Assembly: GCA_002529645.1 (NCBI GenBank)
Contig: NAEP01000023.1
Span: 124,001-188,000 of the forward strand
DNA from: Candidatus Lumbricidiphila eiseniae
GTDB taxonomy: Bacteria > Actinomycetota > Actinomycetes > Actinomycetales > Microbacteriaceae
Reading direction: 5' to 3'
Length of the DNA stretch: 64,000 nt
Positions 35,526 through 51,472 of the stretch are shown piece by piece. A program made the position numbers and the translations under genes. A model generated the notes under the pieces. The model was not told the origin of the DNA and made no database searches. It saw only the letters and a program-made list of their open reading frames with translations. The number at the start of each line of letters is the position of its first letter. Positions within the stretch are counted from its first letter, which is position 1.

Positions 35526-35527
35526 CC

Positions 35528-35581
35528 AGAAGCGTGCTGGCTGCCTGATGTTTTCTAATGTCAGACAGCCAGCACGCTTCT
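35528..35581 (+). terminator. Long hairpin terminator
   Basis: A perfect 16-bp inverted repeat (AGAAGCGTGCTGGCTG at 35528-35543 against 35566-35581), extended inward by CTGA/TCAG, starts 3 nt after the preceding stop codon. There is no long T run on the plus strand, so the mode of termination is uncertain, but position and stem strength fit a transcription end. Confidence 0.7.
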
Positions 35582-35808
35582 GCGCCATAGCTTTACATCA
35601 GATGGGGCTCCAGCAATAATATGGAAAGAATCATTCGTGCTCAACATCTCCAAAAGAACTCAGTCAGCTCAACATGGGAACCAGTATTTTCCTGTTTTGA
35701 GTGAGTCGATTTTCCATTTTGAGTTCAGCCCGCTTCTTGTTTTTATTGCGAGCGTCCCCGGCTCGTATACTCCAAGTATTTTGACTTGACCACTCAACGC
35801 TGTGGTTA

Positions 35809-36063: not shown

Positions 36064-36324
36064 GGGGTTCCCCTCTGGACTTCATATCTGCAGATGGTGC
36101 ACACTCGCGAGTGAATGGGAGCAAGCTCACGGTCGCGTCGATCGGGACTGTTGACAAACACGCATGCCATCAAGCGTGCATATCTACATGTTGGTTTTGA
36201 TGTGCCCGTGTTCAGGGTAGAAGCGCAGCACTTGGTGATGTTCGTGTTCGCTGAGTCAGGGGCTGTGTTTCTATGGGTATACATGACGATCATTTGTTGT
36301 TGGTTGGGTGGGTTCAGGTCGAGA

Positions 36325-37729
36325 AGGGTGCGGAGTGCGGGGTAGTCTGTTCGGCAGATCGCTGTGGTGTTGGGTCGGTCTGTGTCCACGGTGTTGCGGG
36401 AGATACGTCTGGAATAAGTTGGGTGCCGTTGAACGAAAACGAGTCGTATCGTCTGTTCCGGGATATGCGGTTGCATATCTGGCCCGGTGGCCACAACGCG
36501 GTACCGGGTAGAACGGGCAGAGCACCGGTGCCGGAAACGAGCATCCAACTCCCACCGGCCACGAGTGTTTGCGCAGGATCGGATGGTCGGGGTGGGTGAT
36601 AGACAGGCTCCGGGCGGGGTGGACACTCCCGGATGATTCGCAGGCAGGTCTCGGCTCGAGTTTCCGGACCAGTCGCGAATGTGGGTGAGTTGCGACATGA
36701 TTTACCAGTGGATCTGCCACTTCCACCAGCGTCACCGTCAGTTGTGGCAGTACCTGCCCCGTGCACGCGCGATACCGATTGCCGCCACCGACGACGAGCA
36801 CCTCAACCTCGTACCTGCCCCGTGCACGCGCGATACCGATCCAGGCGCTGTGGGCGCCGAGGGCTCGCATCCGACCTGCCCCGTGCACGCGCGATACCGA
36901 TCTGGACCCAGTTTCCGAACTATCCCCGGCTCAGACCTGCCCCGTGCACGCGCGATACCGTTTCAACGGTGGCAATAACGCCGGTCACACGGTTACCTGC
37001 TCCGTGCACGCGCGATACCGTCTGTCCTCAAAAAGACGTGCGTAAAGCCCGTAGGACCTGCTCCGTGCACGCGCGATACCGTCCTCCGAACACCGCGCGG
37101 GAGAGAGTGAGTCCCGACCTGCCCCGTGCACGCGCGATGCCGTCGTACATTCCGGGGTAGACAGGTGCGAAGATCGCGTACCCTGTTCCGGGTGTCTATC
37201 CATGAACGCCCTGCACACATCAACGACCGCTCCGTGTTTGGGCGCGGGGAGTCAGACTCTATCGTGGGAGCAAGGTCGGTGGATGATGGGATTCATACCG
37301 AGGTGGAACGAGCAAGCCGGTTCATTATCACCCAAAAATCAGACGTTCTGACTGCTGAGTGACAGATCACAGCACAGCACTCGATCTTCAGCGCCCTGCC
37401 TCCTCACGCGCGACGGCCCGTGACGATGGACAACGGGGACACTTAACGGTATACAGCCGCTACGAGCTGAGAGTCCAGGGGGTATGGACACGTACTTCGC
37501 TGACCCCTGCGCGGCATGGCAACGCGGAACTAACGAGCACCACAACGCTCGGAACCGACACTACCTACCTATACGCACCGACTTCCGAACCACAACCGAG
37601 GAAGAACTTCAAGAGATCATCACCGGGATCAACAACCAACCCCGAAAATACCTCGGCTGGGCAACACCAGCAGAAATCTACCAGCAACACACACAATTAC
37701 ACGACCACAGTGTTGCACTTCAGACTTGA
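36325..37729 (+). pseudogene. IS30-family transposase, broken
   Basis: Recognisable pieces in different frames are the helix-turn-helix SVRQIAVVLGRSVSTVLREI, the segment WVSCDMIYQWIC, FRVSIHERPAHINDRSVFGR, GIHTEVERASRFII, and the C-terminal MDTYFADPCAAWQRGTNEHH with PRKYLGWATPAEIYQQ. The order is that of IS30 transposases (HTH, then DDE domain). Frameshifts, stops and the insertion of the repeat array between the IYQW segment and the DDE domain make it a pseudogene. Confidence 0.8.
36752..37142 (+). CRISPR. CRISPR-like array of seven repeats, 61-nt period, inside IS30
   Basis: Seven repeats begin at 36752, 36813, 36874, 36935, 36995, 37056 and 37117. The conserved part is 26 nt, starting ACCTGC, with centre CCCCGTGCACGCGCG and ending ATACCG. 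The first four are identical, two have CTGCTCCG and the last has ATGCCG. The six intervening sequences are unrelated in base sequence and about 34-35 nt long. The 61-nt period and the ..CCCCG..CACGCG..GAT..CCG layout resemble type I-E arrays, and degeneracy is greatest at the right end, as at a trailer end. No cas genes are in the window. Confidence 0.7.
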
Positions 37730-37739
37730 ACACGGGGTC

Positions 37740-37769
37740 TTGACACCAATACGGTGCCTGTGTTAGCGT
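37740..37769 (+). promoter_or_regulatory. Probable promoter of the RiPP cluster at the IS30 edge
   Basis: A perfect -35 hexamer TTGACA (37740-37745) stands 18 nt before TAGCGT (37764-37769), which is preceded by TGTGT like an extended -10. It lies 4 nt outside the right inverted repeat of the left IS30 copy. Transcription would start about 30 nt before the first small ORF of the cluster. It is a sequence match only. Confidence 0.5.
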
Positions 37770-37808
37770 ACTGGCACCGCGCTGGAGCGGTTGTCGAAAG
37801 GACAGCTA

Positions 37809-37904
37809 ATGAAGACTGATTTGGTTTGCACGAGACCACAGGTGGGCCAGATGGGCGATGCGGATAATCGGTCTAGTCAACTGGTTTTCTCTCTGATCGG
37901 CTGA
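37809..37904 (+). CDS. 31-aa small ORF heading the cluster
   Basis: ATG 37809 has a good ribosome site (AAAGGA, 7 nt upstream) and encodes 31 residues starting MKTDLVCTRPQVGQMGDADN and ending FSLIG. The stop lies 3 nt before the GTG of the sulfur-carrier gene, so it may couple translation to that gene, which has no clear ribosome site of its own. It has one Cys and no resemblance to the three precursor peptides. It could be a regulatory leader or an additional small peptide. Confidence 0.45.
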   Translation: MKTDLVCTRPQVGQMGDADNRSSQLVFSLIG

Positions 37905-37907
37905 TTT

Positions 37908-38192
37908 GTGGGTGCCGAGGTCGTTACATACACAGTCCTTGTTTCCCAGTCAATCTGGTCCCAGGCGGGTGTTCCTCCATCGTTCCAATGTAGAGGTGTG
38001 ACCTACCGCGAGATTCTCGACGACGCGGCTGGTCAGTATCCGCCGCTTCTCCCCTACGTAGGCGGTGGACAGATTCCACTCGCTGCCTCTGTGGTGCTCT
38101 TCGCAGACGGACGTCAGGTTGAGGACGTGACTGCGGCCGTACCCGGTCCCATCGCAGAGTTACGCATCGTCCTGCCCTCATCGGGAGGATGA
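37908..38192 (+). CDS. ThiS/MoaD-like sulfur-carrier protein
   Basis: The 94-aa protein has the MoaD/ThiS layout: an N-terminal strand (VVTYTVLVSQSIWS), a central helix (YREILDDAAGQYPPLLPYV), a strand with FADGRQVEDVTAA, and the diagnostic end ELRIVLPSSGG, where the terminal Gly-Gly would be adenylated and thiocarboxylated by an E1-like enzyme. The ThiF-rhodanese gene at the far end of the cluster is the obvious partner, and TfuA the likely consumer. GTG 37908 lies 3 nt after the small ORF. The family call rests on length, pattern and the Gly-Gly end. Confidence 0.72.
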   Translation: MGAEVVTYTVLVSQSIWSQAGVPPSFQCRGVTYREILDDAAGQYPPLLPYVGGGQIPLAASVVLFADGRQVEDVTAAVPGPIAELRIVLPSSGG

Positions 38193-38328
38193 TCCATATG
38201 TAAGTATCCTGGGTGATATTTGGTGAATAAAAGTTGGTACGTGCGTAGCACTTCGGCGGGTCAGTTCAGTCTCGCCGAGATAGAGAATCACATCGCGAAA
38301 GTGATCCGCAACCGGAGAAGGGAAGCAG

Positions 38329-38481
38329 GTGAGCAAATTGGAACAAAGTCTGGTGCGAGAGTCCATCGTTGACGATCTCATTATCGAAGATCTGGATGAG
38401 CGCAGCGAACTGGTCGGTGGGGTGTGCGCATGCACGTGCAGCTGCGGTTGCACCTCCACATGCTGCGTCGCTTGGGCGTAA
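38329..38481 (+). CDS. RiPP precursor peptide 1 (Cys-alternating core)
   Basis: GTG 38329 with GGAGAAGGGAAG upstream gives a 50-aa peptide. The acidic leader (residues 1-31) ends IEDLDERSELVGG, a double-Gly cleavage-type site. The 19-residue core VCACTCSCGCTSTCCVAWA has seven Cys, with Cys at every second position for the first five, plus one Ser and three Thr before and between. This is an ideal substrate for azoline formation. Leader and core are strongly similar to peptide 3. It is too short to appear in ordinary gene prediction. Confidence 0.85.
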   Translation: MSKLEQSLVRESIVDDLIIEDLDERSELVGGVCACTCSCGCTSTCCVAWA

Positions 38482-38518
38482 GAAAAATAATAGTGAGGGA
38501 ATTAGGGAGCGAAGACAC

Positions 38519-38656
38519 ATGGATCATGGACCTGAAATCGTCGAAGATTTTTTGACCATAGAGTTACTGGAAAGCCGCGAATCTCCCGGCAGTTGGGGTT
38601 GTGGCTGTTCGTGTTCGTGTTCGTGCACGAGTTGCACCTGCGTTTACACCTGGTAG
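38519..38656 (+). CDS. RiPP precursor peptide 2 (divergent leader)
   Basis: ATG 38519 with AGGGAG upstream gives 45 aa. The leader is acidic (IVEDFLTIELLESRESPG) but lacks the LVGG end of the other two peptides. The C-terminal part is GCGCSCSCSCTSCTCVYTW, with seven Cys and again an alternating Cys-x-Cys register. Compared with peptides 1 and 3 the core is longer by about two residues and ends Tyr-Thr-Trp. It probably uses the same modifying enzymes but may be cut differently. Confidence 0.85.
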   Translation: MDHGPEIVEDFLTIELLESRESPGSWGCGCSCSCSCTSCTCVYTW

Positions 38657-38703
38657 GTGGCAGAAGTGGCGACGCTAATAGTGAGGAAGGGAGGTGGATC
38701 ATA

Positions 38704-38823
38704 ATGGAGATCGATTTGCTCGAAATTGAAGACCTTGAGGAGCGCAATGAGCTGGTGGGTGGCGCATGTGCCTGTACCTGCAGCTGCGGGTGCAGTTCCT
38801 CTAGTTGCATCGTCTGGTTCTAG
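38704..38823 (+). CDS. RiPP precursor peptide 3
   Basis: ATG 38704 follows an excellent ribosome site (GGAAGGGAGG) and gives only 39 aa. The leader MEIDLLEIEDLEERNELVGG is 20 residues and shares the (I/L)EDL(D/E)ER(S/N)ELVGG block with peptide 1. The 19-residue core ACACTCSCGCSSSSCIVWF has six Cys and five Ser. The frame is open upstream to 38593 but that part overlaps peptide 2 and has no ribosome site. The E1-like gene follows. Confidence 0.85.
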   Translation: MEIDLLEIEDLEERNELVGGACACTCSCGCSSSSCIVWF

Positions 38824-38910
38824 CGGAGCAGGTCGCCTGCTCCATCCTCCTAGCCGTAGGAGAGCGGATGGGGCAGGCGATGAAATCAAATTCAAATCGG
38901 AGAAGATCGA

Positions 38911-40065
38911 ATGGAATCGAAGGTCGAGCGCGAGTCCGAAAAAAGACTCCGTCTAGCCGAGGTTTACCTTGTCCCCACGTCTGATGGAGGGCTTACCCTG
39001 CGTACCCCGCGGCGCAGCTCAATTCTGCGCGGGGTTCTTGTCTCACAGGTATTTCCACTGATGCTTCCCCTTCTTGATGGAACTCGTTTTCGCCGGGATA
39101 TCATGAGTGAGCTGAGCACGAGCGTTGATGAGAAAGCACTTAGACGTGCTATCGACCGGCTAATTGAATACGGGATGATTGACGAGGTCGAGGAGGATAT
39201 CTCGGACAAATGGGATCCGGATTTGCGCGGCCGCCTCACACCTCAGATTCGGTTCTTGTCCCAGTACGGTGGTGATTCGAGCACAGTCGCCAGAATTGTC
39301 GACAGCACCGTCGCTGTCATCGGAGACGGACCGCTCATTCCTTCTCTCGCACGAGATCTTGCCGCGAGCGGGGTACGGGTGCTGCGCTTCGTCACTCGTC
39401 GTCTCATCAACGGAGCTGACGTCGCACAAAACGGTGCGCTTCGTCGATCCGACATTGGTACCTCCTACGCCAACGCTGCTCGCCGCTTGATCGTTGAGGG
39501 CGCACTTCCGACAACCGTGGCTGAGGTTGTTGATGTCCCGACTTCGATGCTCGAGTGGAGGACCGTGCTCGGTGGTGTCGCGGTAGCCGTCGTTGCTACC
39601 GATCTCCCTGTCGTCTCGGCACCTTGGCTCGCGGAACTGAATAAAGCGGCGCTGGCGCTTGGTGTACCGTGGACGATCGGTACGCTACTGCAGCGTGCCG
39701 TCGCGCACGTGGGGCCCTCCGTGATTCCGAAGCAAACCTCGTGCTGGAAATGCTTCGAACACCGGTTCAAGAGCAATCTCGATGCCACCGACCGTTACGA
39801 GGAATTCGAGACGTACGTTCGTGATACCGCTGAGTACGTTGATCACGGTGGACTTCCCGGAATCAGCGAGTATGTCGCCGGTGTCGTAAGCGTCGAAGCG
39901 CTCCGCCTGATCACCGCGGACACGGTTGACGTACGCACTGCGGGGCAGCTCCTCACGATTGACCTCTGGGACTACACGATGGAACTACATCCCGTGTTGA
40001 AGCTCCCACGATGTTCGCACTGCAGTCCGACCACCCTCATCCCGCAGGAGCGGGTCTGGAGCTGA
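38911..40065 (+). CDS. Ocin-ThiF-like (E1-like) cyclodehydratase partner protein
   Basis: The 384-aa protein has an N-terminal winged-helix-like region (FRRDIMSELSTSVDEKALRR) that may act as the leader-recognition element. It is followed by a ThiF-like Rossmann segment (STVAVIGDGPLIPSLARDLA). Two CxxC pairs (SCWKCFEH near residue 278 and RCSHCSP near 370) form the tetra-Cys zinc site of azole-type C proteins. It lacks the full GxGGxG of active E1 enzymes. Such proteins bind the leader and activate a YcaO partner. ATG 38911 has GGAGAAG upstream. Confidence 0.82.
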   Translation: MESKVERESEKRLRLAEVYLVPTSDGGLTLRTPRRSSILRGVLVSQVFPLMLPLLDGTRFRRDIMSELSTSVDEKALRRAIDRLIEYGMIDEVEEDISDKWDPDLRGRLTPQIRFLSQYGGDSSTVARIVDSTVAVIGDGPLIPSLARDLAASGVRVLRFVTRRLINGADVAQNGALRRSDIGTSYANAARRLIVEGALPTTVAEVVDVPTSMLEWRTVLGGVAVAVVATDLPVVSAPWLAELNKAALALGVPWTIGTLLQRAVAHVGPSVIPKQTSCWKCFEHRFKSNLDATDRYEEFETYVRDTAEYVDHGGLPGISEYVAGVVSVEALRLITADTVDVRTAGQLLTIDLWDYTMELHPVLKLPRCSHCSPTTLIPQERVWS

Positions 40066-40068
40066 CGT

Positions 40069-41370
40069 ATGCTTGCACGGACAAAGTCTCTCGGTTCTTT
40101 GGACCAGTTTGTTGGCTCGACGTCGATTGTGCGTTCGCTGCGGACCATCCTCAACGAACCGGGAGAACCGCGGCTGTTCAGCCTCGCTAGCGTGCCCAAT
40201 TCTTTCCTTGAAATTTCCGGGGTGGAGATGGCCGGCAGCACCGGGGCGATGGCGGAGACTTGGGAGAACGCGGCGATCAGCGCTGTAGGTGAGTGTGTCG
40301 AACGCTACTGTTGCGCGGTCCAACCGCCCGACCTGATCTTCGCCTCCGCAGCTGAACTCGGTGCGCGAGCCTACCCGCTGGAAACCTTCGAGTTGTTCGC
40401 GGAGCAACAGTACTCGCATCCGGATTTTCCATTCGTCCGTCAGACCGAGTCGCTCTCCATCCCATGGGTCGAGATGACTAGACTATCGGACGGTGAGAAG
40501 CGCTACGTTCCGGCTTGCCTCATCTATATCCCGTATACCCCAGTGCGCGAGGATGGGCAGGACATGCTTGCTCTCTCCGTGTCTTCCGGGCAGGCTTGTC
40601 ATTCGGATCGCGACTTGGCCGTCTTGTCGGGTTTGTGCGAAGTCGTCGAACGGGATGCCTTCATGCTCACTTGGATCCGTCGACTTATTCCAGAACGTCT
40701 TGACCTCAGCTCGTCCCCGATGCTTTCAGCTTGGTTTGAGCAATACTTCGGCGGCTGCACACTCACTTTCGCCTTGTTTCGGCTTCCGTCCGACATCAAT
40801 CTCCCGACGGTGCTGTGCGTCGTCCGCGGGAACGACCTCGACGGCCCGTTTGCCTGCGTGGGTGCGTCGTGTCGACTCAATGAAGAAGACGCCGTGCGCA
40901 AGGCGATCATCGAAGCGGCGCAAGGTGCCGTGTGGGTCCGGGATCTGATCAGGACGAAGCGAGACTGGCGGCCCGAGGAAAACTACTCAAACGTGCGTGA
41001 TTTCTCAGACCACGTACGATTATTCGGCCTGCCGGAGATGTTGCAGCATCTCGATTTCCTCTACGAAGGACCGATTGTGCCGGTGCGTCCTTCCCACCAG
41101 TACGACGATGCACGCCTCACGCTCGAAGAGTGTATCCGCCGCGTCGAGGCTGTCGGGTTGGAACCGTTGGTCTGTGATATCACAACGCCGGATGTGGTCG
41201 ATGGTGGTCTCTGTGTTGTTCGCGTGCTCATTCCGGGGAGCGTCCAGCTCTCAGCGGTGCACGGCCTGCCCAATTTTGGTGCGAGTCGTTACGGTACTGT
41301 GCCCGAAACACTTGGCTTCACCCACGAGATCCATCGTGAATTCAACCGCATTCCGCACCCATTCCCGTAG
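40069..41370 (+). CDS. YcaO cyclodehydratase (azoline-forming), catalytic copy
   Basis: YcaO enzymes use ATP to activate the peptide amide during Cys/Ser/Thr cyclisation. The nucleotide- and Mg-binding signatures are intact: SAVGECVERY (SxxxExxER), LCEVVERDAF and IIEAAQGAV (ExxQ). The protein ends IPHPFP, the Pro-rich C terminus seen in azole-forming YcaO proteins. It starts 3 nt after the E1-like gene, which should be its partner. It is paralogous to the second YcaO at 42283 (shared FA(E/D)(Q/E)QY..P.FPF block). Confidence 0.9.
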   Translation: MLARTKSLGSLDQFVGSTSIVRSLRTILNEPGEPRLFSLASVPNSFLEISGVEMAGSTGAMAETWENAAISAVGECVERYCCAVQPPDLIFASAAELGARAYPLETFELFAEQQYSHPDFPFVRQTESLSIPWVEMTRLSDGEKRYVPACLIYIPYTPVREDGQDMLALSVSSGQACHSDRDLAVLSGLCEVVERDAFMLTWIRRLIPERLDLSSSPMLSAWFEQYFGGCTLTFALFRLPSDINLPTVLCVVRGNDLDGPFACVGASCRLNEEDAVRKAIIEAAQGAVWVRDLIRTKRDWRPEENYSNVRDFSDHVRLFGLPEMLQHLDFLYEGPIVPVRPSHQYDDARLTLEECIRRVEAVGLEPLVCDITTPDVVDGGLCVVRVLIPGSVQLSAVHGLPNFGASRYGTVPETLGFTHEIHREFNRIPHPFP

Positions 41371-41419
41371 GTAGTTCAGTTCAGACAACACACACCAGAT
41401 ACTCGAAAGGACTGTCAGC

Positions 41420-42286
41420 ATGAGTAAACGCCTGAGTGAGATCAGTTATTCACTGATTGATTTTTTTGAGGATGACGACCACTCCGAGACAGAGACGTTT
41501 CACGAGTACACGAAGCTGAACCGAACGAACGCCATGCTGATCGCGCGGCGCGTCGAGGCGATCATGTCGGATCGTGCATTGGTCGGAATGATGGCTCGAA
41601 GTTGGAAGACCTACCCTGGCGCACCGCGGGTTCAGCTACCCGCTTTTGTTCCCCCAGAGGTCAGTTACGCTGATGTTGTTCTTCGTCGACGGTCAGTTAG
41701 CTCTCTCGGTAGAAACTTCGTGGAAGGTCCGATCACGTTGGAGCAACTCTCTGCCCTTTTTCGCTTGGCGTACGCACCAACTACCACTCTTTCTTCGCCC
41801 AACGGCGAGACCCAGCAACTCCGTTCGACGGTGTCGGCTGGTGCTCTCTACCCCACAGAATTGTATGTTGCAGCATTCGACACCGAAGGGCTGGAGAAGG
41901 GGCTTTACCACTACCGACCCGTTGACCACGCGCTCGAGTTCATCCGCGCTGGAGACTTGCGCAACGAGTTCTCAAACGTGAGTTCATACACGGACTTGTG
42001 TCGCTCGGCTTCTGCGGCAATAATCATGACCAGCGTGCTCAAGCGCACGCTGTCGAAGTATCTCCATCGCGGGTATCGGTTCGCGATGTACGATTGTGGT
42101 GCGCTTATCCAGTCGCTCTATCTCGCTGGTACCGCGATGAATATGGACACCTGTGCCGTTGGCGGTATCTATGACGACGAACTCGCAGCGTTCATTGGGA
42201 CGAGTCCGGTTGATGAACCTGTACAACTTGCTTTTCTCGTGGGTCCGTACGGTGGTCGTCTGGCAGCTGCCGGAGGCCCACAATGA
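41420..42286 (+). CDS. SagB/McbC-type azoline dehydrogenase
   Basis: The 288-aa nitroreductase-fold protein should use FMN to oxidise azolines to azoles. Typical segments are YADVVLRRRSVSSLGRNF, TLEQLSALFRLAYA, RSTVSAGALYPTELYVAAF, KGLYHYRPVDHALEFI and FAMYDCGALIQSLYLAGTAM. It lies between the two YcaO genes and its stop overlaps the next start (ATGA). The presence of a dehydrogenase means the final rings are probably aromatic thiazoles/oxazoles. Confidence 0.9.
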   Translation: MSKRLSEISYSLIDFFEDDDHSETETFHEYTKLNRTNAMLIARRVEAIMSDRALVGMMARSWKTYPGAPRVQLPAFVPPEVSYADVVLRRRSVSSLGRNFVEGPITLEQLSALFRLAYAPTTTLSSPNGETQQLRSTVSAGALYPTELYVAAFDTEGLEKGLYHYRPVDHALEFIRAGDLRNEFSNVSSYTDLCRSASAAIIMTSVLKRTLSKYLHRGYRFAMYDCGALIQSLYLAGTAMNMDTCAVGGIYDDELAAFIGTSPVDEPVQLAFLVGPYGGRLAAAGGPQ

Positions 42287-43587
42287 CGGCGACGCTGGTA
42301 TCCGATACCGACTTTGATCGCGTACGGAGCTTGCTGAGGACCCTCGTGTCGCCTCGGGTTGGCATCCTCCGCCGGACGTTGTTACTTCCGACGACGGGTG
42401 GACAGATCCCGTGCGCACACTTTACTGCGGCAGTCTCGAAGTATGACGCCCTTCCCACAGGCGGTGTCATAGCCAATCCTGGTGCCAGCTCCTGGGATCC
42501 TCGGCATGCCGTCACACAGGTGACGTTCGAGGCGATCGAGCGTTACTGTGCGGCTTTCGTTGACTACGGTGCACTCGCGCGGTCCAAGCCAGAGGGACCA
42601 GCATTCAAGGCGGGAATGCAGATCCAACGGTTTGCTGACGAACAATACACGTCCCCGGGCTTTCCCTTTACGCCGATCACGGCGGAGTCGGATATTCATT
42701 GGACCACAGGTCGCTCGCTCCTGACCGGAGATCGCCGGTTCATCCCGGCCGTGTTGACCTACCTCCCGTACCTACCCTCGTCACCGGCCGAGGTCGTCGG
42801 TCCGTCGTTCTCAACGGGTATGGCGGCGTCTTGGTCGCGCGATGCAGCGTGTCTCAATGGCCTGCTGGAGTTGATCGAGCGCGATGCTTTCATGCTCAAG
42901 TGGATGAACCATGCGTCCGGCGATGTTTTGGTACCCGGTGACGGAACCTCACTCGCCGAACATGTAGAGACGGTTGAACGAGACGGGCGTACACGCGTGA
43001 CGTTCACCGACATGACGAGCGACATTGGCATACCAGTCGTCTGCTGTTTGCTTGAACGCACCTTGTTCGGGTGCCGCATCATGAACATTGGTCTGTCCTG
43101 CAAGCTCGATTACGCCGTCGCCTGCGAAAAGGCGCTCTGCGAGGCGATCTCGGACTACGAACGGATCCGCGTTAGCCTCGAAGACGGCACCGCTGACGAC
43201 TGGGAACCTGGCGACGACTTTATCAATGTTACTGACTTCGAGTGGCACGGTTTTCTGTACTCCCGTGAAGAGTACCAAGATGCGCTGAAGCCGCTCCGCG
43301 GCAACGGCAATATCCGGGAGATCAAGACCCTACCCGATCTGCGCACGGCCAGCGAACACCTCAATGAAGTCCTTCTGCTCGTGAAGCCGCACGTCAGCGA
43401 CGTGCTTGCAGTTGATCTCACCACGCGGGACATGGAGGCACTCGGGGTCTGCGTAGTGAAGGTCTTCGCGCCCGAGCTGGTGCCCCTCAATGCGGATCAT
43501 AGGTACCCGTACTTGGGACACGCTCGTCTGAAATCTGCGATAAACGAGAAGTCGACTTTCAATACTCACCCGCATCCATTTTCATGA
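42283..43587 (+). CDS. Second YcaO protein with altered metal/ATP motif
   Basis: This 434-aa paralogue of the first YcaO keeps FEAIERYCA and LLELIERDAF and ends HPHPFS. The SxxxExxER motif has Gln in place of Ser (QVTFEAIER), and the ExxQ motif is EAIS, so the conserved Gln is missing. It may be a non-catalytic or specialised partner, or it may form an oligomer with the intact copy. Starts overlap on both sides (ATGA) show tight co-translation with the dehydrogenase and the protease. Confidence 0.85.
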   Translation: MTATLVSDTDFDRVRSLLRTLVSPRVGILRRTLLLPTTGGQIPCAHFTAAVSKYDALPTGGVIANPGASSWDPRHAVTQVTFEAIERYCAAFVDYGALARSKPEGPAFKAGMQIQRFADEQYTSPGFPFTPITAESDIHWTTGRSLLTGDRRFIPAVLTYLPYLPSSPAEVVGPSFSTGMAASWSRDAACLNGLLELIERDAFMLKWMNHASGDVLVPGDGTSLAEHVETVERDGRTRVTFTDMTSDIGIPVVCCLLERTLFGCRIMNIGLSCKLDYAVACEKALCEAISDYERIRVSLEDGTADDWEPGDDFINVTDFEWHGFLYSREEYQDALKPLRGNGNIREIKTLPDLRTASEHLNEVLLLVKPHVSDVLAVDLTTRDMEALGVCVVKVFAPELVPLNADHRYPYLGHARLKSAINEKSTFNTHPHPFS

Positions 43588-44834
43588 GTGACAAGAACGA
43601 GTCAGTGATCGTGGCCGGGAGCATCTATGAATTCCGTTCGGACCTTATTGTTGGGGAGCCGAGTAACGACGAGAGGGTCGTTATTTTTGACCCCACCAAC
43701 AATCGGGTTTATCGCGTCTCTGCGGTGACACTGCACGCCCTTCGCATTTTTGACGGGAAGAGAGAAACTCAAGCTGTTTGCGAGGTACTCGCTGGTGAGG
43801 GATTTATAATCTCACTTGACACACTCACAACCATGATCGAGCGAGCCAAAACAACGAATTTCTTCGTGGGTGAGCAAGTGTCACCACCTGCCGCTGATAT
43901 TGCGCACCTACGGGGGCCGAGTCGGCGGAATCCGCTCTTCTTCTGCATTTTTGAGATCGATCCGCGACCGATGCTTTACCGCGTTGAGCCAGTGTTCCGC
44001 CGGCTATTTTCACCACTCGGCGTTACCAGTTTCATACTACTTTTCATTGCCGCAATGATGTCAATAGCATTGAATAGTGAACACTACGTGGCGTCTCTCT
44101 ACAATTTCAGCAACATTTTCGCCTGGATCATAACCTACGTTCTGGTGACAATTCTCACTTGTCTCCATGAGATCGGGCACGCCACCGCAGTCATGAAATA
44201 CGGTGGGGAGTGTCGAAAGATGGGACTTTCACTCTACTTGTTGAGCCCGGCAGCGTACGCGGATACCTCGGATGCATATCGATTCTCCCGCACGAGAGAA
44301 AAGGTAATCGTCTCGCTCGGAGGAATCTACGTCGAAACTTATGTTCTCACAATTTCAATTATTTTATGGACTCTAGACATTTTTCCGAACCTCATTACCG
44401 CAGGTCTTTTTATATTCGCTCATTATATTCTCGCCAGAGTCATCGTTAACCTCAACCCGTTCTTGCGATTTGACGGCTACTGGATTCTCGCGGATCTGTT
44501 ACATATCAGCAATCTTCGTTCTAAATCATTTGCATATGTCATAGCTCTGATCTCGCCATTTTATACTGACAGGAGCATGGCGCACGTGGCAACTTCACGT
44601 AAAGAAAGAGTATTCTTCTTTCTTTACGGCCTGACAGCGTTCATTGTCGCAACTTTATCGATTATTAGCGCTTTCTACCTGTTCAACCAATTCCTCGGCC
44701 ACAATACTTCCTTTCCTGCTGCGGTGATAATGACAGGGCTTATGTTCGCCATGGGGAGTTTTGTGCTTTACGGCGGTATGAAATATGTGCGTTCACTTCG
44801 CCTTGGATATGGAAGATCGAAGAGAGAGGACTAA
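43584..44834 (+). CDS. M50-type membrane metalloprotease-like protein with N-terminal PqqD-like region
   Basis: The hydrophobic core carries HEIGH at residues 195-199 and NLNPFLRFDGYW near 290, the zinc and second-metal-ligand motifs of site-2-type M50 proteases. About eight membrane segments are visible. Residues 1-90 (VVIFDPTNNRVYRVSAVTLH and onward) resemble the small winged-helix PqqD-like domains that bind RiPP leaders. The likely role is leader removal at the membrane, or immunity. It resembles peptide zinc metalloproteases found in other RiPP loci. Confidence 0.8.
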   Translation: MSDKNESVIVAGSIYEFRSDLIVGEPSNDERVVIFDPTNNRVYRVSAVTLHALRIFDGKRETQAVCEVLAGEGFIISLDTLTTMIERAKTTNFFVGEQVSPPAADIAHLRGPSRRNPLFFCIFEIDPRPMLYRVEPVFRRLFSPLGVTSFILLFIAAMMSIALNSEHYVASLYNFSNIFAWIITYVLVTILTCLHEIGHATAVMKYGGECRKMGLSLYLLSPAAYADTSDAYRFSRTREKVIVSLGGIYVETYVLTISIILWTLDIFPNLITAGLFIFAHYILARVIVNLNPFLRFDGYWILADLLHISNLRSKSFAYVIALISPFYTDRSMAHVATSRKERVFFFLYGLTAFIVATLSIISAFYLFNQFLGHNTSFPAAVIMTGLMFAMGSFVLYGGMKYVRSLRLGYGRSKRED

Positions 44835-44839
44835 CGGTC

Positions 44840-45547
44840 ATGTACGGCGAGCTACTGATTGACTCAGTGTCAGCGAAGGTTGGACGCTTCTCAATCGAGG
44901 ACATTGGCCTCTCCGTTGGCATGGGAGAAGTGGTCGGACTCCTCGGCCACAACGGTGCCGGGAAGAGCACGACTTTCCGTGTGATCTCCGACTTGGTGCG
45001 CCCGACGTTCGGTTCTGTATGGTTCGGCGATCGGAACCACCGGATCAATGAGCGCGCCTTCAAGCGTTGTGTTGCATTTATAGGCGATAACCAAAATATC
45101 TACAAGAGCATGAGAGTTCACGAAGCCATCGCCTTCGCTCGGCGTTTCTACACCACCTGGGACGATACATGGTGCGCTCAATCCTGCGTGCGACTGCGCC
45201 TGCCCACTGACACTCGCGTTGGTCATCTCTCAACCGGGATGCGCGCAAAACTCGCACTCATCCTCGGTTTCGCTTTTCAACCCAAGATTGTGATCATGGA
45301 CGAGGCAACGTCGAATTTGGATGTGGATTCGCGCGAGTGGTTCTGGGAATACATTGAATCACAGGTTTCCGCGGGCACGCTAGGTGTTCTCATTTCATCT
45401 CATTCTCGTGCCGAGATTGTTCATCGATGCGATCGGGCAATTATTCTCGAGGACGGACTCATCTGCGCCGAAATGGATTTAAAAGGTGATCCTGAGACTC
45501 TTGACTCTCAACTGGTTATGCTACTTGGCATGGAGAGATCAGCATGA
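44840..45547 (+). CDS. ABC transporter ATPase (export or immunity)
   Basis: The 235-aa protein has a Walker A (GLLGHNGAGKSTTF), a signature in the form LSTGMRAKLAL and a Walker B KIVIMDEATSNLDVDS. This pattern belongs to the ATPases of bacteriocin export and self-protection ABC systems with a separate permease. Its stop overlaps the permease start by four bases. It lies in the middle of the cluster, between the protease and the thioamide genes. Confidence 0.9.
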   Translation: MYGELLIDSVSAKVGRFSIEDIGLSVGMGEVVGLLGHNGAGKSTTFRVISDLVRPTFGSVWFGDRNHRINERAFKRCVAFIGDNQNIYKSMRVHEAIAFARRFYTTWDDTWCAQSCVRLRLPTDTRVGHLSTGMRAKLALILGFAFQPKIVIMDEATSNLDVDSREWFWEYIESQVSAGTLGVLISSHSRAEIVHRCDRAIILEDGLICAEMDLKGDPETLDSQLVMLLGMERSA

Positions 45548-46227
45548 GCATTGATCTGCGGAGTATGCTTTTCCTAATTCGAAAGGACCTACGACTCCAT
45601 TGGGTGGCCTTTATCATCCTAGTAGTTTTCCAGCTTGCCACCTTCGTCACATTCGAAGCCCAGTTTCCGCCTGTTATGCAGCCGATGGGAGCAGTGTTTC
45701 TCCAAGGTATCGCATCCATTGGTACGTTTGTCATGGCCTACCGTGTTACCGCTGCCGAGGAAGCAAATAATTCGATTCGTTTCCTCAAATCACTGCCACT
45801 CACAACTATCGAAATCTTCGGAGCAAAGTATCTTTACATGACGATGTACGTCGTGGTTAATCTCGTGGTGTTGAATTTGTTTCTGAGCCTCTTTGGTAAC
45901 CTCATGCCCGGAGAGAAAATTGATGCCCCCACAGTCGAAACCCTTGGCATTGGGTTCGTCATTCAGTTTGCATTCGGCGTTCTACTTGTTTCCGTTGCCT
46001 CATTATTCAATTCGGAGAAGGCGATTTGGGTACCATTTCCTCTCGTCGTATTACTTCTCAATGGATACGCGCAGCTGACTTCCAATAATGGACCCATCGC
46101 AACACTTCGCCTGTGGGCTTACATCAACGAAAATTGGCTGTGGATGTCTGCTGGCGTGGTGGCAGAACTTCTTATCCTTGTTTGGTTGGGGCTACGTGCG
46201 CTCACCATCAAACGATCTCTAATCTGA
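45544..46227 (+). CDS. ABC transporter permease subunit
   Basis: The 227-aa protein has about six hydrophobic segments (for example LHWVAFIILVVFQLATFVTF and YLYMTMYVVVNLVVLNLFL) and a short cytoplasmic loop with RFLKSLPLTTIEIFGAKYLY, the pattern of ABC-2 type permeases. With the ATPase it should export the modified peptide or protect the producer. It is followed by the thioamide YcaO after 11 nt. Confidence 0.85.
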   Translation: MSIDLRSMLFLIRKDLRLHWVAFIILVVFQLATFVTFEAQFPPVMQPMGAVFLQGIASIGTFVMAYRVTAAEEANNSIRFLKSLPLTTIEIFGAKYLYMTMYVVVNLVVLNLFLSLFGNLMPGEKIDAPTVETLGIGFVIQFAFGVLLVSVASLFNSEKAIWVPFPLVVLLLNGYAQLTSNNGPIATLRLWAYINENWLWMSAGVVAELLILVWLGLRALTIKRSLI

Positions 46228-46238
46228 CCCGGGGAACT

Positions 46239-47477
46239 ATGGAAACCGATCTCATCCATTGCAATGCGCCAAGTCCCAAACGATTTGTTCAGGGCACCCA
46301 TCGAATGTGCGCTCCAGGCGAAACTTTCGAACGCTTCTCACCCTTTTTGGGACGTTGCGGTATCACGCGGTTGGCGAACGTGACCAATCTGGACACAATC
46401 GGCCTTCCGGTATATGTAGCGATACGCCCCAATTCTCGTGGCCTTTCTACTTCCCAGGGCAAGGGGATTACCCGTGACGCCGCGCGTGTGTCGGCGATGA
46501 TGGAATCTTTCGAGGGATGGCACGGCGAGAATATCGTCGTGACCGGACCGTACGCCAGACGTCGAGAAGCCGAGGATTTGAGCGGCATTCGGGCCGTTGA
46601 CGTCGCCGGCCTGTATCGCCGGGGGGAATCGTCGGCCTGGAGCGAGCGTCGACGCTTGCCGTGGTGCGTTGGCCGCGACCTCCTAACTGACTCAGCTGTG
46701 CTGGTGCCGTACGACGCTGTCTCGACGGATTTCACCGAGACAGTGATGCCGACGCCGATCATTCGGACGACGAATGGACTCGCTAGCGGGAATTTGCAGT
46801 TGGAAGCGGAGCTTCACGGACTCTACGAAGTACTTGAGCGCGACTCCGTTGGCCGTTGGACCAAGCAAAATCCGGACTGGAGCGATGTTGTTGATCCTTC
46901 GACGCTCGATGACGAGAATCGCGAGATCATTGCCGCAGTGCGAGAAGCGGGTCTGGTCGTCGCTGTCCGGCAGCTTCCCTCGTGGTGCGGTCTTCCGGTG
47001 TTCGCTGCCATGATCGCGCCGAGCCTGGCGCAGCCTTCGCTCCCACGCGCCACCTTTTCTGGTTATGGTGCCCATCTTGACCCGAAAGTGGCAGTGAGCC
47101 GTGCGCTCACCGAGGCCGTGCAGAGTCGGCTCGCGTTGATCAGCGGAAACCGGGACGATCTCTGGCCCTCCGAATACGCACGTGTCCTCGATCACCGTGC
47201 TGCCGACGAATGGTCGCGAAGCATCGCTGCCGCACCACTCTCGGTCAATTTTACCGACGTCCGCGACCTCTCCACGAGCACGCTTGACGAAGATCTCGAT
47301 CTTCTGCTCGCTCGGCTCCGGGATCACGTTGATTTCGTCGTCGCTGTCGATCTACGCCACGAGGAACTTGGGATCCCGGTAACAAAGATCGTAGTATCTG
47401 GGATGCATGGCATCCCCTTCGACGAACGTCGTCGATTCGGGATCTCAGAGTCAATTTCGGAGGTACCTAAACTATGA
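46239..47477 (+). CDS. TfuA-associated YcaO (peptide thioamide-forming)
   Basis: ATG 46239 is preferred (GGGGA upstream); the longer frame overlaps the permease gene. The protein is distant from the other two YcaO proteins. The block GLSTSQGKGITRDAARVSAM and MESFEGWHGE is the form seen in YcaO proteins that work with TfuA, and the ExxQ motif is present (TEAVQSRLAL). The last ER of SxxxExxER is EG here. There is no Pro-rich C terminus. It overlaps TfuA by four bases. The activity is backbone amide-to-thioamide conversion by analogy with characterised YcaO/TfuA pairs. Confidence 0.85.
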   Translation: METDLIHCNAPSPKRFVQGTHRMCAPGETFERFSPFLGRCGITRLANVTNLDTIGLPVYVAIRPNSRGLSTSQGKGITRDAARVSAMMESFEGWHGENIVVTGPYARRREAEDLSGIRAVDVAGLYRRGESSAWSERRRLPWCVGRDLLTDSAVLVPYDAVSTDFTETVMPTPIIRTTNGLASGNLQLEAELHGLYEVLERDSVGRWTKQNPDWSDVVDPSTLDDENREIIAAVREAGLVVAVRQLPSWCGLPVFAAMIAPSLAQPSLPRATFSGYGAHLDPKVAVSRALTEAVQSRLALISGNRDDLWPSEYARVLDHRAADEWSRSIAAAPLSVNFTDVRDLSTSTLDEDLDLLLARLRDHVDFVVAVDLRHEELGIPVTKIVVSGMHGIPFDERRRFGISESISEVPKL

Positions 47478-48796
47478 GCGCCCCCACCGCTGTTTTCCTT
47501 GGACCTTCGCTGCCCCTTGCCGAGGCGCGCGCGATCCTGCCCCATGCGGACTACTACGGCCCCGCGCGCGCCGGCGATATCTACCGGGCGGTTGCCTTCA
47601 ACCAAGCGAAGATAATTGTGCTCATTGACGGTTTCTTCGGTTCCGTACCTTCTGTCTGGCACAAGGAAATCCTCGCTGCCTTGTCTGACGGATGTGTCGT
47701 TTTCGGCGCATCCAGTATGGGCGCGCTCCGCGCCGCCGAGTGTGATTCCTTCGGTATGGTCGGCTACGGCTGGGTCTACGAGCAGTACGCCTCTGGAGCG
47801 CTTGAGGACGACGACGAAGTAGCCCTTCTGCATCACGGATCAGATCAAGGCTATTCTCCGGTAACAGTTCCAATGATTGTGCTTCGACGCGGCATCGAGC
47901 TGGCGGTCCTCTGCGACCCCTTTCACAAGGAGGCGGGACAGCGACTACTTCATACGGCCAAGCACTTTGCATATCAAGAACGTAGCTGGACTGCCCTAGC
48001 GGACACTCTCACCCCGACTGATCCTGCTGCAGGAGATCTCCTCGAAGTTGTTCGTGCGAGCGGGACCGATGTAAAGGCCGACGACGCACGCATGGCTCTT
48101 CAGGCCGCAGCACAGCATGCTGGCTTCCAGATCCAGGATCCCGCCGCAACTCCCGTTATTGTGGAAGACACCGCGTTCTGGCGCCGTCTCCGCGCCGAGG
48201 TTGGTGGATCTCGCATCGAGCCGTTGACTAATGAGAGACAGCCGCCTGCGCCTGTCCTGGCAACGATGGACAGACCTCTAGCGGATGCGCTTCGGACACC
48301 GTCCGATCATCAGGTCGGACTCGAAGCGCGCCTTTTTGCTCAACTCGTCAACGATACCGCTGAGGTACTGGGAGTGATACCCAGCAGTGAAGCGCTGCAG
48401 ATCCGGGCCAATGAATTCCGGCGGGTAAACAGCCTCCACTCGGGCGAGGCCATGAAGCAATGGCTGCAGGAGCGCGGCCTTAGCGTCGCTAGCTGGATAG
48501 CCGCGCTCCGGTTCGACCTCTTGGTTGATCGGCTAGAAGACGAATACGCTAGCAGCCTCCGCAACTATCTGCCAATGCTTCTTGCACGTGCGGCACGTCC
48601 GCTCTCCAAGGAACGCAGTGTCACGCTGACCTTGGAAGCCGATGAACCAGGCGATCTACTCTACAGTGCACTCGCCAATCTCGCGCAGAGTGAAGGCGTA
48701 CCGCGCGCGGCGAGCTATGACTCACTGGCCCGACGGCTTGGTTTCGACTCCCTCTCCGAACTCATCGAGATGGCACGGTGCTCGCCATCGGCCTGA
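47474..48796 (+). CDS. TfuA-like protein
   Basis: The first 150 residues are a clear TfuA core: AVFLGPSLPLAEARAILPHA, ARAGDIYRAVAFNQAK, VLIDGFFGSVPSVWHKEILA, FGASSMGALRAAECDSFGMV and LEDDDEVALLHH. Work on a methanogen TfuA showed a Ser-Lys hydrolase that releases sulfide from thiocarboxylated ThiS for the YcaO enzyme. The candidate Ser (SSMGALRAAE) and Lys (WHKEIL) are both present. The 440-aa length includes a long C-terminal domain of unknown function. The gene end overlaps the convergent E1 gene by 82 nt. Confidence 0.9.
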   Translation: MSAPTAVFLGPSLPLAEARAILPHADYYGPARAGDIYRAVAFNQAKIIVLIDGFFGSVPSVWHKEILAALSDGCVVFGASSMGALRAAECDSFGMVGYGWVYEQYASGALEDDDEVALLHHGSDQGYSPVTVPMIVLRRGIELAVLCDPFHKEAGQRLLHTAKHFAYQERSWTALADTLTPTDPAAGDLLEVVRASGTDVKADDARMALQAAAQHAGFQIQDPAATPVIVEDTAFWRRLRAEVGGSRIEPLTNERQPPAPVLATMDRPLADALRTPSDHQVGLEARLFAQLVNDTAEVLGVIPSSEALQIRANEFRRVNSLHSGEAMKQWLQERGLSVASWIAALRFDLLVDRLEDEYASSLRNYLPMLLARAARPLSKERSVTLTLEADEPGDLLYSALANLAQSEGVPRAASYDSLARRLGFDSLSELIEMARCSPSA

Positions 48797-49923
48797 CACC
48801 GACGTTCCTTCGCCCAACCGAGGAACCCGCCGTCTAGGTAACGCAACCGGCCGACGGTGCCGAGAGGAAGCGCCTGCGCTGCTTGCATCGAACGAATGCC
48901 AGAGTGGCAGTAGAGGACGACATCGTCGGCCGGATTGAGTAGCGCGGACGCTTCACCCAATAGGAAGAGGCCGAGCGGGATTAGTTCGTCGCCGAGGATT
49001 GCCGCCTCGTCGTGCTCGACGGTCTCGCGAACGTCAACCAAACGGAAACCCGCGGGCGGATCATTGAGAAGTGCATCGAGTTCGGCGGGGCTCAGGGCCT
49101 CAAGTGTTGAGGTCAGCGAGATATCGCATGCAGCGCCGATGTAGTCGGGTGAGTCCTCCAGCACGCGCATCGTGCGTGTTCCGCAGGTCGGGCAATCTTC
49201 TCGTTTGACGGGAGCCATTGACGCCCACTCACCACTCAGGGCATCGAAGATACGCAGTCGGCCAACATAGGTGTGACCGGCACCAAGAATGAGTGCAATT
49301 GCAGCGCTCGCCTGCGTGGTTCCGATGGCACCGCAGACAGCACCGACAACACCGGCCTCGGTGCAAGAAGGTACTTGGGCGCTTGCTGCCGAGGGAAAGA
49401 CACACCGATAGCACGGGCCGATCACTGCCGGCCACCACACGCATACCTGCCCTTCGAACTGGAAGACGGAGCCCCATACATGCGGTTTGCCGACAAGTGC
49501 GCACGCGTCGGAGAGGAGATAGCGCGTGCCGTAGTTGTCCGTCCCGTCAACGATGACGTCATAGTTCGCGAGGAGGGCGAGAGCGTTTTCCGGGGTGATC
49601 CGAGTCCGGTGTTCCACAACGGAAATGTCTGAATTCAGTGAGCGGAGCCGCCGCGCCGCAACATCGACTTTGGAAAACCCAATGTCTGCCTCGGAGTACA
49701 GCACCTGACGCTGCAGGTTCGAGAGTTCAACCCTGTCGTCATCCACAAGTCCGATGACTCCCACGCCAGCGGCAGCAAGGTACAGAGCGATAGGCGAACC
49801 AAGACCACCAGCACCAACGACAAGGACATGCGCGCGAGCGAGTTTTTCCTGCCCTGCTCTCCCGACATTCGGCAAAATCATTTGCCGTTCATAGCGCCCG
49901 AAATTCAGTACCTCATCACCCAC
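48715..49923 (-). CDS. ThiF/MoeB-type activating enzyme with rhodanese domain
   Basis: GTG 49923 (GAGGT upstream) gives 402 aa. The N-terminal E1 domain has RYERQMILPNVGRAGQEKLA, VVGAGGLGSPIAL, NLQRQVLY, DGTDNYGTRYLLSD, the Cys pairs CYRC and CPTC for zinc, and CTEAGVVGAVCG. The C-terminal rhodanese domain carries its persulfide Cys in YCHSGIRSMQ (near residue 339). This is the MoeZ-like design that adenylates a Gly-Gly carrier and transfers sulfur to it. The natural partner is the ThiS/MoaD-like protein at 37908. It is read from the opposite strand to the rest of the cluster. Confidence 0.92.
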   Translation of the reverse strand: MGDEVLNFGRYERQMILPNVGRAGQEKLARAHVLVVGAGGLGSPIALYLAAAGVGVIGLVDDDRVELSNLQRQVLYSEADIGFSKVDVAARRLRSLNSDISVVEHRTRITPENALALLANYDVIVDGTDNYGTRYLLSDACALVGKPHVWGSVFQFEGQVCVWWPAVIGPCYRCVFPSAASAQVPSCTEAGVVGAVCGAIGTTQASAAIALILGAGHTYVGRLRIFDALSGEWASMAPVKREDCPTCGTRTMRVLEDSPDYIGAACDISLTSTLEALSPAELDALLNDPPAGFRLVDVRETVEHDEAAILGDELIPLGLFLLGEASALLNPADDVVLYCHSGIRSMQAAQALPLGTVGRLRYLDGGFLGWAKERRCQADGEHRAISMSSERESKPSRRASES

Positions 49924-50143
49924 CCTTGACCTCTTTCCTCGGTCGAGAGCGAACCCGCGAACGCCCAAGGAAGTGCAGTACTCCCAAAACGGTGGCTGCA
50001 AGAACCAGAATCACACCCATCCACGGCACGTCAGTCCAGAACCATCGTATTCCCTTGTCGGACGCGTTGAATCCGATACCAAGCAAGAGTGCCAAAATTG
50101 CCGACACTAGAAGCAGTGAGCGGCGAGTAGTCTTTTCTTTCAT
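49916..50143 (-). CDS. Small two-helix membrane protein ending in Gly-Gly
   Basis: The 75-aa protein has two hydrophobic segments (LLLVSAILALLLGIGF and MGVILVLAATVLGVLHFLG) and a basic end (RSRPRKEVKGG). ATG 50143 has AGAGGA upstream. Its stop overlaps the start of the ThiF-rhodanese gene by eight bases, so the two are translated together. The terminal Gly-Gly resembles a carrier end but the protein is not a beta-grasp type, so this may be chance. It could be an immunity or assembly factor. Confidence 0.6.
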   Translation of the reverse strand: MKEKTTRRSLLLVSAILALLLGIGFNASDKGIRWFWTDVPWMGVILVLAATVLGVLHFLGRSRVRSRPRKEVKGG

Positions 50144-50331
50144 ATCTAGAGATCCTCTTCAATCGCTAGTTAGAACAGCTCACGGAAGCCCGTGAGAGCT
50201 GTATGTAGTAAGTGTCTCAGATTCTAAGGATACAACAGCTGGCCAAGAGGGTGCCCGTGTTCAAGGTAGAAGCGCAACACTTGGTGATCTTCATGTTCAC
50301 TGAGTCAAGGGTTGCGCTTCTATGGGTATAC

Positions 50332-51472
50332 ATGGCGATTATGTGTCGTGAGGTTGAGCAGATCCAGATCGAGAAGAGTGTAGATGCTGGGTGGTCTGTT
50401 CGGCAGATCGCTGTGGTGTTGGGTCAGTCTGTGTCCATGGTGTCGCGGGAGATTCGCCGGAACAAGTGGGTGGCGTGGAATGAAAACGAGTCATATCGTC
50501 CGTTCCGGGATGTTTGGTTACATACCTGGTCCGGTGACCACGGTTCAGTGCCGGGCGGAACGGGCAGAGCACCGGCGCCGGAAGCAAGCATCCAACTTGC
50601 ACCGGCCACGTGTGTTTGTTCAGGATCGGATGGTGGCTTGGATGATAGACAGACTCCGGGCGGGGTGGACGCCCCCGGATGATCGCAGGTAGGTCTCGGA
50701 TCGAGTTCCGAAGAGGGATCCGCGAATGTGGGTGAGTTGCGACACGATCTACCAGTGGATCTACCGTCCGGGACCTGCACCACCGTCAGTTGTGGCAGTA
50801 TCTGCCCCGTGCGTACGTGATACCGGCCACCACCAGCCGGGGTATGCTCCATGCGGTGGTATTTGTCCCGTGTGTACGCGATACCGTCGTAAGCTCCGGG
50901 GTAGATTGGGTGCGTTTTGACCGTATCTTGTTCCGGGTGTCTATCCGTGAACGCCCGACACACAGCAACGACCGCTCGGTGTTTGGACACCTGGGAGTCA
51001 GACTCTATCGTAGGGGCAAAAACTGTGGGTGAGGGGATTCATACCGAGGTGGAACGAGTAAGCCGGTTCATTATCGTCCGGAAAATAGACGCTCTGACCG
51101 CTGAGCGTGGGATCACAGCACAACACTCGATCTTCAGTGCCCTGCCTCCTCATACGCGGTTGTCTGTGACGATAGACAACGGTATCAAGGTGTACCGCCA
51201 CTATGAGCTGAGAGTCGAGTGGGGTATGGACACGTACTTCGTTGATCCCTACGCGGCATGTTAACACAGGAACTAACGAGCATCACGGCGGTCGGATCCG
51301 ACGCTACCTACCCACACGCACCGACTTTCGAACCATAGCCGACAAAGGAACTCTAGGAGATCATCCCCGAGATCAACAGCCAACCCCGAAAACACCTTGA
51401 CCAGGCAACACCAACAGAAATCTACCAACACCGCATAGGATCACACCACCACAGTGTTGCACTTCAGACTTG
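50332..51472 (+). pseudogene. IS30-family transposase, broken (right copy)
   Basis: Pieces in order are the HTH (SVRQIAVVLGQSVSMVSREI), the segment KQASNLHRPRVFVQDRMVAW, MWVSCDTIYQWIYRPG, LFRVSIRERPTHSNDRSVFG, GIHTEVERVSRFIIVRK and SVTIDNGIKVYRHYEL with a DDE-type Asp. In-frame stops (for example at 51261) and frameshifts are present. It is better preserved than the left copy around the second Asp, but is also non-functional. Confidence 0.8.
50800..50886 (+). CRISPR. Two CRISPR-like repeats inside the right IS30 copy
   Basis: Repeats at 50800-50825 (ATCTGCCCCGTGCG then TACGTGATACCG) and 50861-50886 (ATTTGTCCCGTG then TGTACGCGATACCG) are related to those of the left array and start exactly 61 nt apart, with one intervening sequence. 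They occupy the same place in the transposase gene. On its own this would be too little to call an array; it matters because it matches the seven-repeat array in the left copy. Confidence 0.5.

Follow-up and report, generated by a model that had tools for sequence, protein, structure and literature searches.

A candidate peptide cluster that pairs azole formation and YcaO-TfuA thioamidation with its own sulfur-carrier genes in Candidatus Lumbricidiphila eiseniae

Linear azol(in)e peptides of the plantazolicin, streptolysin S and microcin B17 types are made by B, C and D enzymes that act on a precursor with a leader and a core, with a protease and ATP-binding cassette (ABC) export completing the set, and the known members are not known to have a YcaO-TfuA pair or a sulfur relay. 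Here we describe a cluster of 15 genes (37908-50143) in a 64,000-nucleotide stretch of the Candidatus Lumbricidiphila eiseniae genome (contig NAEP01000023.1 of assembly GCA_002529645.1, bases 124001-188000, hereafter the window), a 2.85 Mb draft in 73 contigs that is 97.4% complete. The cluster shares with the linear azol(in)e peptides the B, C and D proteins, leader/core precursors, a protease and ABC export, and it also encodes a thioamide-type YcaO, TfuA, a sulfur-carrier-like protein and a ThiF-rhodanese enzyme. Judged from its genes, this cluster for ribosomally synthesized and post-translationally modified peptides (RiPPs) probably yields linear poly-thiazole/oxazole peptides with at least one backbone thioamide, served by a dedicated protein sulfur relay.

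Several parts of this combination have been described. In archaea, TfuA and YcaO thioamidate a protein, methyl-coenzyme M reductase (MCR), and the ycaO-tfuA neighbourhoods named in the text of that study contain thiF, moaD, moeB and rhodanese-domain genes (PMC5589413). A later text, citing Liu et al. 2021, states that a Ser-Lys pair of archaeal TfuA hydrolyses ThiS-COSH and that the sulfide passes to YcaO (PMC13185837); whether the TfuAs of bacterial RiPP clusters act in the same way was stated in 2021, in a passage of PMC8153245, to be still undetermined. The window resembles the archaeal system in its TfuA family (solved structure 6xp8), in its MJ1094-type YcaO and in the logic of a sulfur carrier, but the archaeal substrate is a protein glycine, whereas here it is presumably a RiPP precursor. 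Among bacteria, the clusters of Malit et al. 2021 (PMC8120280, Fig. 5C) combine YcaO-TfuA with an azole YcaO and a flavin dehydrogenase, and the figure legends of that paper name ThiS and MoeB among TfuA-cluster genes. Compared by the text of the paper, with its figures and supplementary sequences unseen, these clusters mostly have a fused YcaO-cyclodehydratase and split lanthipeptide dehydratases, whereas the window encodes C separately from its two D proteins and no dehydratase was found there. Actinobacterial TfuA has been reported with ThiS-like neighbours (PMC6511847) and YcaO-TfuA in a Nakamurella azole-plus-dehydratase cluster (PMC10676384), and two further papers set TfuA-linked YcaOs aside (PMC4603692, PMC7136475). 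The association of YcaO-TfuA with azole genes, and of ThiS or MoeB with TfuA, is thus already known from genome mining (PMC8120280, PMC6511847, PMC9576775).

The ycaO and tfuA genes of the window (46239-47477 and 47474-48796) are adjacent, with the start of tfuA overlapping the stop of ycaO. MJ1094 is the closest solved relative by sequence of this YcaO, the third in the cluster, which carries the TfuA-type Met, His and Ala in SAMMESFEGW, LHGLYEVLERD and RALTEAVQS (our own assignment, made with the published logos unseen); Met, His and Ala are preferred in the ATP-binding motifs according to the text of a survey of 2,422 TfuA-linked YcaOs (PMC8120280). An original prediction, made from the DNA alone, had taken the pair to be of the thioamide type, and the resemblance to TfuA-linked YcaOs bears this out. 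In Pfam and NCBIfam scans with family cut-offs, TfuA matches PF07812 with 136 bits (cut-off 30); its residues 5-211 match solved TfuA 6xp8 (E 2e-27), and Ser81 is invariant in an alignment of 82 rows, of which two come from the window itself. Lys64, considered as the partner of this Ser, was not assigned, as it aligns with Arg in 6xp8. The protein extends about 225 residues at its C-terminus past the part that matches 6xp8, and many of its relatives are similarly long.

At the left end of the cluster, a gene with a GTG start (37908-38192) encodes a protein with a Gly-Gly end that matches no Pfam or NCBIfam family; since even at E up to 10 it does not match PF02597, we call it sulfur-carrier-like and not a member of that family. 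Its AlphaFold2 model (mean pLDDT, the predicted local distance difference test, of 73, from 3 sequences of which 2 are nearly identical) predicts a beta-grasp carrier-like fold with a free C-terminal Gly-Gly, for which SAMP1, MoaD and CysO are the best fold matches. A carrier gene whose product is 31% identical lies in the related cluster of the metagenome-assembled genome (MAG) Actinobacteria bacterium 69-20 (L005). The putative carrier-activating and sulfurtransferase enzyme, a MoeZ/MoeB-like ThiF-rhodanese protein (48715-49923, reverse strand), matches the ThiF and rhodanese domains with 261 and 46 bits. It contains an NLQRQ stretch, two CxxC pairs and a CHSGIRS loop, which we take to be functional motifs. 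The last gene (49916-50143, reverse strand) also encodes a GG end and was considered as a ThiS-like protein, but its product is a hydrophobic membrane protein and this assignment was rejected; it may be an immunity or export accessory, and it has a relative beside the L005 carrier gene (phmmer E 4e-10 to L005:765-971). All other genes of the cluster are on the forward strand. The genes that the original prediction had named (precursors, C protein, YcaOs, SagB, M50, ABC, YcaO/TfuA, Gly-Gly protein and ThiF-rhodanese) all lie where it had placed them, its ThiS/MoaD-like Gly-Gly protein has the predicted sulfur-carrier fold, and the gene at the right end is a separate one, for a membrane protein.

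The azole-forming enzymes are assigned by family membership. An E1-like C protein with a leader-binding region (38911-40065) matches ThiF with 35 bits and TIGR03882, the leader-binding family of thiazole/oxazole-modified microcins, with 52 bits (cut-off 36.9); it also matches TruD and LynD, its leader-binding and CxxC regions align with TruD, and its CxxC pairs are kept in aligned orthologs. Two SagD-type YcaOs, YcaO 1 (40069-41370, C-terminal PHPFP) and YcaO 2 (42283-43587, C-terminal PHPFS), match TIGR03604 with 292 and 229 bits (cut-off 219.25), with LynD and TruD as solved relatives by sequence for both and MusD for YcaO 1 only. Between them lies a SagB-type dehydrogenase (41420-42286; TIGR03605, 140 bits, cut-off 78.4). 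An M50-like membrane metalloprotease with a HEIGH motif (43584-44834), likely the leader protease, scores 19.8 bits against Pfam M50, below the cut-off of 27.2, and its best NCBIfam match, the daptide protease NF041824, reaches 196 bits, below the cut-off of 300; HExGHA and PFLRxDGY are conserved in 3/3 orthologs. An ABC transporter ATPase (44840-45547, PF00005) and an ABC-2 type permease (45544-46227, PF13346) follow. YcaO 2 was considered as a degenerate, non-catalytic partner, as it lacked the motif-1 Ser and the motif-3 Gln in 3/3 orthologs of a first alignment. With three more azole YcaOs added, both positions proved variable elsewhere (YcaO 1 of L005 and of a second related cluster, L004, likewise has no such Ser, and a Paracoccus YcaO lacks both), and because the Glu/Arg positions are conserved among azole YcaOs this idea was dropped.

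Three precursor genes lie between the carrier gene and the C gene: 38329-38481 (50 aa, GTG start), 38519-38656 (45 aa, of the SWGCGCSCSCSC type) and 38704-38823 (39 aa), the last two with Shine-Dalgarno-like stretches upstream. The presumed core of each, 20-22 residues long, contains 6-7 Cys and 5-8 Ser/Thr. When we count stop-to-stop frames that span 30 codons or more and have 6 or more Cys among their last 25 residues, the window has 5, the three precursors and two unrelated frames, against 8 in total from 30 first-order shuffles; with at least 7 Cys, two precursors and one unrelated frame remain. The precursors of the window, L005 and L004 have in common a leader of about LxIEDLExR and a core of about GACACTCSCxCTSCSCVxW, and a second core type, SWxCGCSCSCSCTSCTCVY, occurs in one precursor each of the window and L005. 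A precursor profile matched 89 proteins at E up to 1 among 2,925 candidates, including the L004/L005 peptides and a few weak matches; expressions for core and leader, both written post hoc, fit 83 and 87 of the 89, none of which bears a functional name in the database listing. In sampled genomes the profile found only the source genomes (1/396 for the phylum, 1/396 for the order and 1/282 for the phylum of L004), and short precursors may have been missed there because in many genomes only some first-look candidates were scored. The family looks rare in sampled genomes, yet it has many metagenome-derived matches.

Relatives were sought with an alignment of 13 TfuA-type YcaOs against a species-genome collection, and among the best 80 of 413 places two carry a cluster of this kind. 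In L005 each of the 15 genes has its counterpart (membrane protein, carrier, three precursors, C, D, B, D, M50, ABC, permease, YcaO, TfuA and ThiF-rhodanese), whereas L004, from the MAG Polyangium sp., shows three precursors, C, D, B, D, M50, permease, YcaO and TfuA; as both are MAGs, the assignment of their contigs could be wrong.

Carriers also recur near TfuA in less similar clusters. Of 39 locus genomes that we chose from the 80, 6 have PF02597 no more than 20 kb from TfuA (at about 20, 7, 17, 17, 17 and 17 kb), where 0.68 would be expected from gene number and genome size. Loci with azole genes have a carrier in 5/7 cases, one of them of the divergent L005 type, and loci without them in 2/32 (Fisher p 0.0007); with Pfam carriers only, the counts are 4/7 and 2/32 (Fisher p 0.006), and these p values are optimistic because the loci are related to each other. 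Only azole genes within the stretch first read were counted, so that L006, whose azole YcaO appears only in a wider stretch fetched for its ThiS (L094), is not azole-type. In L095-L098 and in L100 (Paracoccus aminophilus plasmid pAMI4), thiS and moeB stand side by side, and no azole genes were seen in L095. These neighbourhoods indicate that the sulfur module recurs beside TfuA. The pAMI4 cluster, at 280-299 kb of its record, has azole and dehydratase-type genes with its own ThiS and MoeB-rhodanese.

The proteobacterial clusters L100 and L096-L098 resemble that of the window in having ThiS, MoeB-rhodanese, an azole YcaO, a protein with a RiPP recognition element (RRE), a nitroreductase, an M50 protease, ABC genes and YcaO-TfuA, but they differ in a Lant_dehydr_C protein (PF14028 in pAMI4, with relatives in L096-L098), an unrelated core and a canonical PF02597 ThiS. 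Precursor-like peptides in L095, L097, L098 and L100 have cores unlike those of the window and appear thiopeptide-like, by look only; SDCxSSASSASCCTCTGSFGSxGSVxSCG is common to L097, L098 and L100, and none was found in L096. The cluster of the window forms a branch apart from these, in which no dehydratase was detected.

PF02597 was not found in the host genome, whereas the other genomes of the same search matched in 39/39 cases (37 above the cut-off) and a ThiS-family match occurs in all 24 same-genus genomes tested. A profile built from nine MoaD-like proteins of the genus reached no more than 13.8 bits (E 0.25) in the host. MoaE is absent from the draft genome and present in 9/9 same-genus genomes tested. 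A ThiF-rhodanese relative occurs in 36/39 other genomes; the ThiF-domain proteins of the host are four, the cluster's two, an RRE-ThiF-like protein and a Cap2-like protein of a cyclic-oligonucleotide-based antiphage signaling system (CBASS), and no housekeeping ThiF/MoeB was found. The cluster's carrier and ThiF-rhodanese are the only such pair detected in this draft genome, in which ThiG was not searched. The missing MoaE, MoaD/ThiS and housekeeping MoeB suggest a loss of molybdenum cofactor synthesis in the host. Elsewhere in the genome, contig 67 (1575-3982) has a CBASS cyclase adjoining the Cap2-like E1 protein, and contig 16 (4630-8940) has ABC transporter genes followed by the RRE-ThiF-like protein, in which an N-terminal RRE-like part is combined with a ThiF domain. 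The latter presumably resembles MccB/PaaA-type peptide-modifying enzymes, and the locus is possibly a second RiPP locus.

Gene content, family membership, the predicted carrier fold and conservation in two other bacteria are what we observe; published chemistry is the model for all reactions and the order in which they occur, for the thioamide and where it is placed, and for export. In this scheme the E1-like protein would hold the precursor leader (LxIEDLEER) while the SagD-type YcaOs cyclise Cys, Ser and Thr, and SagB would oxidise the azolines to azoles. ThiF-rhodanese would adenylate the Gly-Gly end of the carrier and convert it to a thiocarboxylate, which TfuA would hydrolyse, passing the sulfide to the third YcaO. 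The latter may then replace O by S in one of the backbone amides left unheterocyclised; the order of steps and the position are guesses. The M50-like protease would cleave off the leader and the ABC pair would export the product.

Three other explanations have to be weighed against this pathway. The product could be an azole-only linear peptide, like streptolysin or listeriolysin, with YcaO-TfuA and the relay thioamidating another host protein or being passengers. The B, C, D, protease and ABC core is indeed a complete set for such a peptide, precursor 3 weakly matches the listeriolysin S family (NF033222, E 0.0011, 18.7 bits, below the cut-off of 33), and the archaeal pair modifies a protein, MCR, in the account of PMC5589413. 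However, the overlapping ycaO-tfuA genes directly follow the permease gene, in the same order in L005 and L004, and the YcaO does not look like a housekeeping modifier, as no match at E 1e-10 occurs in 59 other same-genus genomes sampled; we regard an azole-only product as unlikely. It seems very improbable to us that the carrier and ThiF-rhodanese have their role in the general sulfur metabolism of the host (thiamin, molybdopterin, cysteine) and are adjacent by coincidence. No other ThiS/MoaD-like or MoeB-like gene was detected in the genome (ThiG again outside the search), but carrier and ThiF-rhodanese are both found in the L005 cluster too, although PF02597 is present at another place in the L005 genome; the host lacks MoaE, a usual client, and ThiS-MoeB pairs stand in five other TfuA neighbourhoods (L095-L098, L100).

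There is slightly less still to be said for a thiopeptide-like cluster with its genes for dehydratase and cycloaddition at some other place in the genome. The related proteobacterial azole, TfuA and ThiS/MoeB clusters do carry the dehydratase C-terminal protein, three of them with the different, thiopeptide-like-looking core, and 4/89 precursor homologs are tagged PF19409, a thiopeptide precursor family. Yet, as the original prediction had said, no lanthipeptide-type dehydratase is present: a Pfam scan of 54 window proteins showed none (the search did not extend to the whole genome), Paracoccus protein queries found none in L005 or L004, and the window core is unlike the proteobacterial core. 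The scanned proteins also gave no Pfam match suggestive of a [4+2] pyridine-forming enzyme, at which no search was aimed.

A number of observations weigh against the predicted thioamidated polyazole and its dedicated relay. The site of the thioamide is not predictable. The carrier matches no sequence family, its model derives from 3 sequences and no Foldseek match reached E 0.001, and in the window TfuA the Lys that pairs with the Ser in archaea could not be assigned. Two genes, those for ThiF-rhodanese and the membrane protein, run in the opposite direction to the rest, and the L004 stretch, whose contig ends just past TfuA, was read without a match to the ABC ATPase, ThiF-rhodanese, carrier or membrane protein. 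The lack of another ThiF-rhodanese is not unique to the host, as 2/24 same-genus genomes also have no match, and precursor-bearing clusters without TfuA would be missed because the comparison clusters were found through YcaO.

In the window, pdxST (20.5-22.1 kb) precedes the cluster and yebC-secDF (55.8-62.4 kb) follows it. From 38911 to 48796 the cluster genes are all on one strand, with gaps of at most 49 bases and four start/stop overlaps; the end of the ThiF-rhodanese gene overlaps that of tfuA by 82 bases, and the membrane-protein gene overlaps the ThiF-rhodanese gene by 8. The G+C content is 0.563, against 0.625 (1-34000) and 0.617 (52001-64000) in the flanks. The third YcaO matched in 3/100 genomes, its own and two weakly (28 and 32% identity), a distribution that would fit a horizontal arrival. 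No close DNA match to 33400-50400 or 37300-37800 was found in plasmids, precursor queries against plasmids gave no match (the low-complexity filter may have hidden some), and no relative was confirmed in viral contigs. Promoter and terminator scans gave signals no higher than in shuffled sequence. Just upstream of the cluster, at 36747-37147, is a CRISPR-like array with 7 repeat copies at 60-61 base spacing.

The original prediction knew of no described linear azole peptide family with this full gene set. This stands for the precursor family and the dehydratase-free set, which we did not find described, but the combination is less unprecedented than it had supposed, as azole genes with YcaO-TfuA, and ThiS or MoeB beside TfuA, have been reported. 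A literature text search for the gene combination or core strings returned no recognisable description of the precursor family (the single match to a core string was a fungal nonribosomal peptide synthetase/polyketide synthase paper), and as it missed most subscription papers, a prior description is possible. The precursor family and the dehydratase-free, sulfur-supplied gene set are apparently new. We give about even chances that the window, L005 and L004 represent an undescribed RiPP class, found in Actinomycetota and one Myxococcota MAG, of dehydratase-free thioamidated polyazoles with a conserved core of the GACACTCSCxCTSCSCVxW type and a second core type in the window and L005, in which a captive relay of divergent ThiS, ThiF-rhodanese and TfuA would replace the host's missing carrier system.

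Here a full sulfur relay is encoded together with the precursors. Because no other ThiS/MoaD, MoaE or housekeeping ThiF/MoeB was found in the draft genome, the question of how bacterial TfuA acts becomes directly testable. If the proposed pathway is true, its products would have a linear polyazole-thioamide scaffold, built on cores with a dozen or more Cys, Ser and Thr.

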